Source: Bacteroides sp.
GTDB lineage: Bacteria > Bacillota > Clostridia > Lachnospirales > Lachnospiraceae
DNA length: 49,170 nt
Direction of reading: 5' to 3'
NCBI GenBank assembly: GCA_023666705.1
Contig: JAMPBO010000022.1
Location: 1-49,170, forward strand
In this document: piece by piece, positions 26,966 to 36,865 of the stretch
Layout of the letters: every line of letters begins with the position of its first letter
How positions within the stretch are numbered: position 1 is the first letter of the stretch
Translations under genes and position numbers: made by a program
Notes under the pieces: generated by a model
What the model was told of the DNA's origin: nothing
Seen by the model: only the letters and a program-made list of their open reading frames with translations
Database searches by the model: none

Positions 26966-26982
26966 GATTATGTGAAATAGAA

Positions 26983-27179
26983 ATGAGTAAAACATTACTT
27001 TTGCGAACTTCCGTTGTACAATATAGACAAATCACCGCAAGGCACGCTTTCGCTATGTGTCGCACGTAACGGTACTAAGCTCGAAGAAACCTCGCTAAGT
27101 ACCGACGGCTCCCCAATGCCTTGTTTGTGATTTGTCTATATTGTACAACGAACTTTTACGAAAACAGTGTTTTGCTCAT
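26983..27179. repeat. 197-bp palindromic element after the butyrate operon
   Basis: The outer arms run from 26983 (ATGAGTAAAACATT) to 27179 (reverse complement ATGAGCAAAACACT at the other end). They contain a perfect 24-base inverted repeat at 27012-27035 and 27127-27150 (TTGTACAATATAGACAAATC core). The centre carries ACGTAACGGTACTAAG (27064-27079) and AAGTACCGACG (27097-27107). These match the end cores of the palindromes at 35511-35773 (15 of 16 and 11 of 11), so it is a third member of that family, in the orientation of the outer copy. It lies between the butyrate operon terminator and the Gx-type gene. No protein-coding frame in it looks real. Confidence 0.85.
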
Positions 27180-27209
27180 CGCTATATGCAGAATTTATGG
27201 GAGGGTAGG

Positions 27210-34639: not shown

Positions 34640-34669
34640 TTCCGGTAATTGCGGAATACTGCCTTTTTA
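34640..34669 (+). terminator. Weak hairpin after nrdR
   Basis: TTCCG (34640-34644) and CGGAA (34652-34656) form a 5-base stem, followed ten bases on by TTTTT. The stem is short, so this is only a possible terminator of the rnf/degV/nrdR run. Confidence 0.3.
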
Positions 34670-34743
34670 AATATTATACAACTTATTTTTGATAATATGG
34701 TATTTTGCAATTGCTTATCAAATGTTTCTATAAAGAGGATAAT

Positions 34744-35364
34744 ATGTCAGATAGTTATATAACCCTGATAAAGGGTGGAGAAGACGAAATAACCGAAAAA
34801 AAATCGCGGTTTATAGGGCAGATACAGCCTGTCTCCAGTGAGGAGGAGGCACAGGCATTTATCGGGAGCATAAGAAGAAAACATTATGATGCCAGACATA
34901 ACTGCTTTGCTTTTTCCGTGGGAAGCACAATGCCAACCTTGAGATTTTCTGATGACGGAGAGCCACAGGGGACGGCGGGAAAACCCATACTCGAGGTGAT
35001 AAACGGTTCAGGCATCCACAATATCTGTATCGTTGTGACAAGATACTTTGGGGGAACGCTTTTGGGCACGGGAGGGCTGGTACGTGCTTATACCGATGCT
35101 GCAAAGGCGGCACTTTCACACTGCACGACGAAGCTCATTCAGAGACTTTATCCTGTGGAAATAAGACTTGGCTATACGGATATGGGTAAGGTTTCTTACA
35201 TACTTAACACGAAGAATATTGAGATTCTTGATACGGTTTTTGCGGATGATGTTGTCTTTCGGATACAAATTCCCGTAGATAGAAAAGAGGAAATCCTAAA
35301 TGAGATTACGGAGGCGACAGGAGCAAGGGCATCCCTGACTGTCGGCGACGAAATCTTTGGATGA
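34744..35364 (+). CDS. YigZ/IMPACT-family protein
   Basis: The 206-residue protein has the family opening ITLIKGGEDEITEKKSRFIG, the H-rich segment HYDARHNCFAFSVG, then FSDDGEPQGTAGKPILEV and VVTRYFGGTLLGTGGLVRAY, the UPF0029 signature. Eukaryotic IMPACT acts in translational control; bacterial YigZ is of uncertain role, with a crystal fold resembling elongation factor domains. The ATG at 34744 follows AGAGGAT. Its TGA stop (35362-35364) directly touches the palindrome at 35365-35920. Confidence 0.93.
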   Translation: MSDSYITLIKGGEDEITEKKSRFIGQIQPVSSEEEAQAFIGSIRRKHYDARHNCFAFSVGSTMPTLRFSDDGEPQGTAGKPILEVINGSGIHNICIVVTRYFGGTLLGTGGLVRAYTDAAKAALSHCTTKLIQRLYPVEIRLGYTDMGKVSYILNTKNIEILDTVFADDVVFRIQIPVDRKEEILNEITEATGARASLTVGDEIFG

Positions 35365-35920
35365 CGATATTTCAGCCGTCACGCTATGGCAGGCGTATTT
35401 CGGTTATGTCCGCACGTAAGGACCTTGTTTCGTGCACAGACATACGATATCAGGTAAAGTTGCCTGAATAATGTCTTAAAATTAGCTGCACGGATACAAA
35501 TATACAGCACAAAAACCCACTTTCGTTCGGTTAAAGACGTAGCGGTACTAAGAATTGGCAATACCGTGTAAGACCATACAATAACAACAAAAACCGTTTG
35601 AAGACGTCGGTACTTAAATTGCCGGTCTCAGATATCCTCAGTTGGGTTGCCTGAAACCGGCAATTTTTAGTACCGCTACGTCTTTAACCGAACGAAAGCG
35701 GGTTTTTGTGTTATTGTATGGTCTTATACGGTAAGCCAATTCAAGTACCGACGTCTTCAAACGGTTTTTGTTGCCTGTATATTTATACCCATGCAGCTAA
35801 TTTATGTGTTCATATCTACAGACGATTTTGCCTGATGTCGTATGCCTGTGCAGGGATTATTCATTTTGCGTGCGGACATAACCAAAATACGCCTGCCATG
35901 GCGTGGCGGCTGAAAATCGG
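35365..35920. repeat. 556-bp nested palindrome filling a convergent intergenic region
   Basis: The stretch begins immediately after the YigZ stop and ends immediately before the ABC permease stop. Outer arms: 35370-35404 reads as the reverse complement of 35881-35915 at 32 of 35 positions, and similarity continues inward to about 35505/35775. Inside lie block B (35511-35550), spacer s (35552-35588), block C (35585-35615), a central hairpin (35616-35667, AAATTGCCGG / CCGGCAATTT), B' (35668-35707), s' (35708-35742) and C' (35743-35773). No protein gene is credible in it. It can serve as a terminator for both flanking genes. Confidence 0.9.
35585..35707 (-). repeat. Inner copy of the oriented palindromic element
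   Basis: This 123-base unit has C at its left end and B' at its right end, the mirror image of the outer unit (B at 35511, C' at 35773). C is identical to the reverse complement of C' (31 of 31), and B to that of B' (39 of 40). It is therefore best read as a second copy of the same element, inverted, inside the loop of the first. Confidence 0.75.
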
Positions 35921-36865
35921 TTACAGCAGGGTTGCGGCGAACACAAGTACAATGGAGCCAAGCATTATGATAGGAAGCACCTTCGAAAGCGTGGTGCTTT
36001 TTCTGATGATGGGCTGAAGCACGATTGATGCAAGGGCTGCCACAAAAGAGCATATGATGATATTTGTTATGAATATGGAGCGTCCATATGTCAGGAGACA
36101 GCAGGCTACGGATACAAGGCATATGGGCAGTATGGCTGCTGCTACGTTGGCAGTAAGAACAAGCAGCCTTGTGGTATTTGGAAGAGCAATAAATATGCTT
36201 CGCTCGCTGTCTGTCATATAGGTTAAAAGTCCCAGCAGACCTGCAAAAATAATCAGGCATAGGGCAGCCTCATGGACGGGCAGCTTTATGTGATAGTTTA
36301 AAATAGTGGAGCTGTATGTTCCTGTAGATACATCCTCGATACGGAATATTTCATCCGAGGATAGGTACGTTGTTATGGCGGTAACAAGACCGTCATTTAA
36401 CGCAGGGGTTCCTATAGCATGTAGCAGGATATCCGTTGCACATATGCTGTATATATAGGAAAAAAAGGTTTCGGTTACCGTGCTTGCAAGGGTAGTTCCG
36501 GGAACGGTGTACACGGAAAGCTTTTGTTCAATGTTTCCTGTTATATAACCATCCATAAAGCCTGTCGGGACAACAATGCCACACTCGGCATTTCCTGATT
36601 TGACATCCGTAATAAGCTGTTCCACATTATCAGACATGTAAAAATGATATACGGACGTGGAATGTAAGGTTTTGTCCGCAAGCATGTCTGCATAGCTGCT
36701 GTTATCTTCAATGTATACTGCAACATTGATATCTGAGGATTTGCCTGCCATAGGCAAAAGCTGATAAACAGCTGTGAGCAGAACTAAAACGGCAAGTATA
36801 AAAATATATAGCTTTCGCAGAAGCATTCTTTTTAAGGATACATGAAAAACATTTTTAAAGCTCAT
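35921..36865 (-). CDS. ABC-2-type transporter permease (second permease)
   Basis: The protein is 314 residues from MSFKNVFHVSLKRMLLRK at 36865, preceded on its strand by GGAGG at 5-base spacing. It has one N-terminal hydrophobic segment, an extracytoplasmic region of about 140 residues (DINVAVYIEDNSSYADMLAD start), then four or five hydrophobic segments, the ABC-2/YhgE-like layout of subunits with a large outer domain. Together with the next permease and ATPase it forms one exporter operon, all on the minus strand. The two permease genes overlap by 11 bases. Substrate unknown; a drug, peptide or lipid export role is possible. Confidence 0.78.
   Translation of the reverse strand: MSFKNVFHVSLKRMLLRKLYIFILAVLVLLTAVYQLLPMAGKSSDINVAVYIEDNSSYADMLADKTLHSTSVYHFYMSDNVEQLITDVKSGNAECGIVVPTGFMDGYITGNIEQKLSVYTVPGTTLASTVTETFFSYIYSICATDILLHAIGTPALNDGLVTAITTYLSSDEIFRIEDVSTGTYSSTILNYHIKLPVHEAALCLIIFAGLLGLLTYMTDSERSIFIALPNTTRLLVLTANVAAAILPICLVSVACCLLTYGRSIFITNIIICSFVAALASIVLQPIIRKSTTLSKVLPIIMLGSIVLVFAATLL

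Follow-up and report, generated by a model that had tools for sequence, protein, structure and literature searches.

A nested palindrome between yigZ and a convergent permease gene as a likely member of a Lachnospiraceae family of fold-back mobile elements

The window, a stretch of 49,170 nucleotides, contains a 556-bp palindrome that makes up the entire intergenic gap between the convergent genes yigZ and a permease gene. It starts at position 35365, one base past the yigZ stop codon (TGA, 35362-35364), and ends at 35920, one base short of the stop codon of the permease gene on the minus strand (TAA, 35921-35923). YigZ carries UPF0029 and DUF1949 domains (Pfam), and the neighbor across the gap encodes an ABC-2-like permease whose Pfam match lies under the cut-off. 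The palindrome arms are complementary from end to end, with 217 of 257 aligned bases identical and 42 gap columns, and their alignment score of 116 compares with a maximum of -14 among 300 dinucleotide shuffles. A first-pass annotation had described a palindrome filling the whole gap, and its existence, the exact gap boundaries and the 32 of 35 matching positions quoted for the outer arms were all borne out. The hairpin of about 270 bp that it envisaged was too long, the longest helix chain comprising 221-227 pairs. Predicted RNA folds reached -318 kcal/mol (z -30) for the plus strand and -305 kcal/mol (z -24) for the minus strand, and the predicted DNA fold -186 (z -24).

Since the arms mismatch at 40 of 257 positions and the gene pair occurs together without the palindrome in 22 of 29 relatives, a two-strand assembly artefact appears to be an unlikely source of the structure. 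Three ORFs of at least 60 aa overlap the palindrome and have no Pfam match at E 0.01, in agreement with the earlier statement that nothing in it codes for protein; being short and devoid of a transposase gene, the palindrome is in this respect like a MITE. Searching the window against Rfam matched no family, the best weak match (E 0.0087) being a microRNA family far under its cut-off.

The description as a nested palindrome held, but the arrangement is more than simple nesting and reads M5, spacer, M3 reversed, core, M5 reversed, spacer', M3 (Table 1). Module M5 differs from the related module M3 by an extra 12-nt stretch (CACTTTCGTTCG in the window copy, mostly ACGCTTTCGCTC elsewhere) and by two extra bases ahead of CGGTACT. 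Each layer therefore forms a helix whose two bulges lie on the same side, and this side changes from one layer to the next. Because M5 and M3 are related, the inverted repeats I1, I3 and I4 cross one another. An older layer that has eroded probably makes up the inner portion of the outer left arm, and the left outer spacer suggests that a further, now eroded outer layer was once part of the window copy. Matches in two other genomes (G001 and G015) extend to about 35786-35795, into the right arm of the outer spacer.

Table 1. Features of the palindrome and of related elements in the window
Feature	Position	Strand	Remarks
Second copy of the hairpin motif, single layer, inverted-end element of sister family B	26978-27184	+	
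Outer left arm	35365-35477		No second copy in the genome; outermost ~17 nt like the G022 gap (by eye)
Spacer stem of the type found between layers in other copies	35478-35507		Score 35, reached by 0 of 1000 shuffles; highest score among 644 control windows 30
Layer 1, module M5	35508-35557	+	Unpaired bulge 35518-35529
Inter-layer spacer stem, left arm	35558-35584		
Layer 2, module M3 reversed	35585-35621	-	Layer points the opposite way
Core hairpin	35616-35666		AAATTGCCGG...CCGGCAATTT
Layer 2, module M5 reversed	35661-35710	-	Bulge at about 35689-35700
Inter-layer spacer stem, right arm	35711-35736		
Layer 1, module M3	35737-35773	+	
Outer spacer, right arm	35774-35802		Weaker match; 25 of 1000 shuffles reach score 24
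Outer right arm	35803-35920		Unique in the genome; last ~20 nt like the G022 gap (by eye)
Likely yigZ terminator, within the permease ORF and beyond the palindrome	35975-36003	+	AAGCACC...GGTGCTTTTTC; fold -14 kcal/mol

The inner 265 bp of the palindrome recur at five further places in the same genome (G000), four full-length and one partial, with 79-93% identity, and shorter matches are present at five more places. Long matches were found in four other species of the genus (G001, G011, G015 and G022), and some match was present in 13 of 41 genomes with the own genome counted, all 13 within the genus. A covariance model of the single-layer hairpin (R1), built from 17 of 33 listed hairpins, matched 36 of the 37 genus genomes with 1-61 matches per genome (2 in G013 and 61 in G043), counts that can include both strands of one place; the exception was an incomplete genome with 0 matches. 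Across the order, at least 26 of 295 sampled genomes, from at least 11 of 129 genera, had matches, and all of them belong to a single family, the Lachnospiraceae. These are lower bounds because scoring was limited to 11 candidates per genome. Across genera, including seven loci of other genera that were read, the bulge and a CGGTACTAA-type stem are conserved while the foot stems vary. Most copies of the family are intergenic and a few overlap an ORF call. Judged by mechanical ORFs, the copies in G000 occupied co-directional gaps in 16 of 26 cases (6 convergent, 3 divergent and one locus without a right-hand gene) and those in G006 in 18 of 24 (4 convergent, 2 divergent). The 556 bp had no match in phage and plasmid records and one exact 20-base pattern was not found in viral contigs, while one exact 26-base pattern was found in genome contigs in two Lachnospiraceae MAG records.

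YigZ is present in 36 of the 37 genus genomes, and 30 of the loci, 29 of them from relatives, were read up to 700 nt downstream of the gene. The permease gene is next to yigZ in 22 of these 29 relatives, and the palindrome motif (1 mismatch allowed) is present in none of the 29 within this distance. The longest stem chain at the locus in any relative comprised 52 pairs versus 227 in the window copy. The 556-bp gap compares with 67 bp in the nearest relative, G022, whose YigZ is 93% identical, and with about 25 bp in G011, where the identity is 89%. The simplest reading is an insertion of most of the palindrome in its own lineage; its loss from all relatives instead would need many events. The first-pass annotation had taken unrelated sequence at this site in relatives as refuting its reading, and none of them carries the palindrome. 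What this refutes is a conserved role at the site, not the palindrome itself.

The long arms could also have been made in place, with a small inserted hairpin extended outwards to the stop codons by repeated template switching of flanking DNA. This explanation is consistent with the single-copy nature of the outer arms, with the outermost ~17 nt of both arms, which resemble the ends of the G022 gap (by eye, no statistics), and with the copies L290 and L299 in G043, where the short stretch that separates the stop codon from the element likewise looks palindromic by eye. On the other hand, the outer left arm has a family spacer as its inner part, so that at least this part arrived with the element, and the gap in G022 measures only 67 bp. 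We regard an origin of the long arms in place as possible but doubtful.

Within an arm, neighboring modules alternated in direction in 97 of 97 cases over 58 parsed loci. As this count includes many copies related by descent, it describes a family rule rather than 97 events. Arms with three modules at L048, L050, L302 and L319 together with the distant loci L140, L145 and L146 suggest that alternation was reached more than once; the latter three, the most distant loci, have too few modules for the count and were seen to alternate by eye.

The modules are conserved, and the stems that separate them are specific to each copy yet remain paired. The two arms of a copy resemble each other more than they resemble other copies. 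In 35 of 37 two-layer copies (two rows were skipped, the module edge not being located), spacer arms were 0.90 identical within a copy versus 0.63 between copies, and the own spacer partner was the best or tied in 32 of the 35. Eleven rows picked as close copies out of the 37 held, in 366 cells, 43 two-sided changes, 8 one-sided changes and 16 unpaired states, and the two-sided changes affected 17 of 34 pairs. Covariation in these copies was 0.355 versus 0.138 in shuffles; shuffles and slid structures were far lower, less clearly so for the number of pair types, which was reached by 7 of 500 shuffles. Among 62 arm mismatches, G-U compatibility on one strand held for 22 and on the opposite strand for 24, and 16 were transversions. 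Together, the changes in the arms fit copying of one arm from the other in the DNA better than selection acting on a single RNA. Given the lack of strand preference, strong stem covariation alone is no proof of a functional RNA. Copying between arms should erase the bulges, yet they persist, and the asymmetric bulges are probably under selection, conceivably for recognition by a mobilizing enzyme.

These data bear directly on whether the family could be a structured regulatory or processed RNA, for instance a 3' UTR element or an RNase III site, that became multicopy through a host function. Conserved unpaired bulges with covarying stems, the mostly intergenic copies and the presence in at least 11 of 129 genera, all of one family, would agree with such a role. 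The arm mismatches without strand preference argue against it, as do the lack of conservation of the site and a copy number that varies between 1 and 61 across the species of a single genus, with 0 in one incomplete genome. Neither did the copies show an orientation bias relative to flanking genes. A uniform test of 122 loci outside sister family B (described below), with 11 excluded, 7 for lying in a mechanical ORF and 4 for lacking a clear module or flanks, found 35 copies in the same direction as the genes and 45 in the opposite direction in 80 co-directional gaps (p 0.31). Overall, a functional RNA seems an improbable explanation. In G006, hairpins were opposite to the flanking co-directional genes in 11 of 14 cases and in the same direction in 3, a tilt that is missing in the other genomes together. 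The general strand bias suggested by eye in this genome was dropped after the uniform test.

A hairpin with a T run beyond the palindrome (Table 1), spotted by eye and then folded but absent from the list of the terminator scan, is likely the yigZ terminator, situated within the 3' end of the permease gene on the opposite strand, and its sequence is readable in five of six relatives inspected (L234, L235 and L237-L239). Within the palindrome the scan returned only two 5-pair stems with poor T tails, and the GC-rich stem with a T run, kept at the site, that defines an intrinsic bidirectional terminator was not found. Although the exact placement between two stop codons and the strong hairpin would suit a bidirectional terminator of the convergent pair, as the first-pass annotation had proposed, the motif is missing in all 29 relatives with the gene pair kept in 22, terminator-like matches inside are poor and the likely terminator lies elsewhere, which makes this role very improbable.

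The other window copy of the hairpin motif, at 26978-27184, belongs to a sister family, family B, in which the same hairpin is enclosed by a shell whose ends read, for example, TAGGCAATTGCGAAAT or TAGAGATGAGCAAAAC; the terminal inverted repeat (TIR) forms of such inverted-end elements include TAGGCAATTGCGAAAT and GGGCTGTCGCA. This copy exhibits a decayed duplication of ~10 bp and its site is empty in G022. One of 18 family-B loci was set aside in the orientation test. A direct repeat of at least 9 nt (1 mismatch allowed) was present in the own flanks of 10 of 17 copies versus 15% of swapped flanks. Flank repeats of 10-13 nt were observed at L171, L191, L192 and L194, and the target duplications of the family measure ~10 bp. 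Among 11 family-B sites compared with G022, three were clean empty sites (L161, L192 and L193), while at the other eight the sequence in G022 was diverged or reduced. Versions consisting of the shell alone, about 50-85 bp long, also exist, one of them (L214) with a 12-bp duplication. The window holds such a version of 76 bp between nrdR and yigZ (34642-34717), flanked by the direct repeat AAATGTTT as judged by eye.

Outside family B, own flanks were not better than swapped flanks in most groups, the exceptions being G321 (3 of 6) and a mixed group (3 of 8), and no target duplication was seen by eye at the window copy. One copy, L363 (G321:C130), has a perfect 21-bp direct repeat on its flanks. 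Shared terminal inverted repeats are present in family B and in most of the G043 copies inspected, whereas the arms of the window copy are unique in the genome. An autonomous copy was seen neither around 19 TIR matches (ends paired by script, about 1.5 kb on each side) nor among the ORFs read in three further genomic regions. The transposase search covered the families PF01797 and PF13751 only: the Y1 transposase (PF01797) is present in 8 of the 37 genus genomes and had no match in G000 or G006, and DDE_Tnp_1_6 (PF13751) had no match in G000. The lack of both in G000 argues against a resident RAYT or IS605 system, and a resident REP/RAYT or IS200/IS605 mover was rejected on the lack of a Y1 match in G000 and G006.

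Another mobile-looking hairpin of ~40 nt (GTCCTNAGGA...GTCTGCTTCGCAG...TCCTNAGGAC) lies inside five members of the family (L102, L113, L220 and L225 in G000 and L213 in G015) and is missing from nine of ten aligned family copies; these palindromes thus do receive other hairpins. The outer ends of many nested copies resemble GGGGCTGTCGCA (L283-L299 in G043, L063, L213 in G015 and the left flank of L161, just left of window position 26978). Plain terminator-like hairpins in those genomes (AAAAGGGGCTGTCGCA) read like these outer ends too, and terminators may serve as targets or shell parts of nested copies.

The relatives of two copies concern the direction of change. L120 was considered as an insertion into a terminator loop, G022 having a bare hairpin there, and was rejected as such: its stem is like a family spacer, so that a deletion of the center in G022 fits equally well. 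The outgroups G011 and G044 have other terminator-like hairpins at the place. At L155 the relative (L264) reads as a deletion between repeated M5 modules, an instance of decay. The two comparisons thus give growth by insertion no polarity, the relative of L120 being possibly a center deletion and that of L155 reading as a loss of layers. The recombination hot spot mentioned in the first-pass annotation is supported only as far as the deletion between modules in this one relative copy.

Taken together, we consider it likely that the palindrome belongs, as one copy, to a family of non-autonomous mobile elements of the fold-back (hairpin) type in Lachnospiraceae, and that it grew by nesting, with arms homogenized at the DNA level. 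The mobile repeat that had been offered as one option is supported by the multicopy family, by the absence of the motif at the site in all 29 relatives and by the target duplications of the sister family. The window copy is probably a recent insertion, and probably a harmless one between two convergent genes. Such an element would be moved in trans by a transposase that sees folded or inverted-repeat DNA, and layers would be gained when another hairpin element lands in the center of an existing palindrome in inverted orientation. Template switching during replication, with one arm copied from the other, would keep the arms alike, selection for recognition would retain the asymmetric bulges, and RNA hairpins and effects on transcription would be by-products. 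More speculatively, and with distinctly less confidence, the family might be a self-nesting hairpin transposon. Its preferred target would be the tip of a folded palindrome, its own included, insertion would always be inverted, palindromes would grow inwards by layers, and the asymmetric bulge pair of the folded DNA would be the signal for a Lachnospiraceae enzyme as the mover.

The result is a structured DNA repeat that occurs in several genera of a single family, has no Rfam match in the window and reaches up to 61 model matches per genome, and for which a search of the open-licence literature by words, not by sequence, found no description. Its points of interest are the layered architecture and the concerted arms. 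The copies represent natural replicates for asking whether long palindromes are kept perfect by template switching or by selection, and whether folded DNA tips are targets of transposition. The asymmetric bulges resemble those of integron attC sites, which have R and L boxes and are recombined by IntI.

Like the prokaryotic MITEs, including Correia elements, in the part of a review considered here (PMC10969869), the family is short, gene-less, dispersed in intergenic regions and bounded by inverted repeats, and one sister family has target duplications of ~10 bp; that part of the review also mentions elements inserting into one another. Different from the MITEs described there are the layered hairpins, the alternating modules, the conserved asymmetric bulges and the copy-specific stems, and in addition no parent transposon was found here and the window copy showed no duplication by eye. 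REP elements with RAYT transposases, according to the portion of the source used (PMC3733652), likewise form intergenic palindromes with unpaired conserved bases, many copies and units in opposite orientation. These are 20-40 bp long and tagged at one end by GTAG or CGTC, whereas the group medians of the single-layer hairpins range from 139 to 224 bp, visual inspection of the available folds showed no such tag at the foot of the hairpin, and the own genome has no Y1 transposase. SMR-A of Haloquadratum, as characterized in the excerpt drawn on (PMC3119063), measures about 110 bp, has inverted ends and makes no target duplication. Its insertion inside near-terminal palindromes of other elements sets a precedent for palindromes as targets; these targets are IS605-type elements and PATEs, and alternating one-module layers are not described in that excerpt. 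The maintenance of hairpins by template switching is similar in that one-step two-sided changes keep stems paired, and is described, in the sections of that work referred to here, for RNA genes such as rRNA and not for mobile palindromes (PMC8794818).
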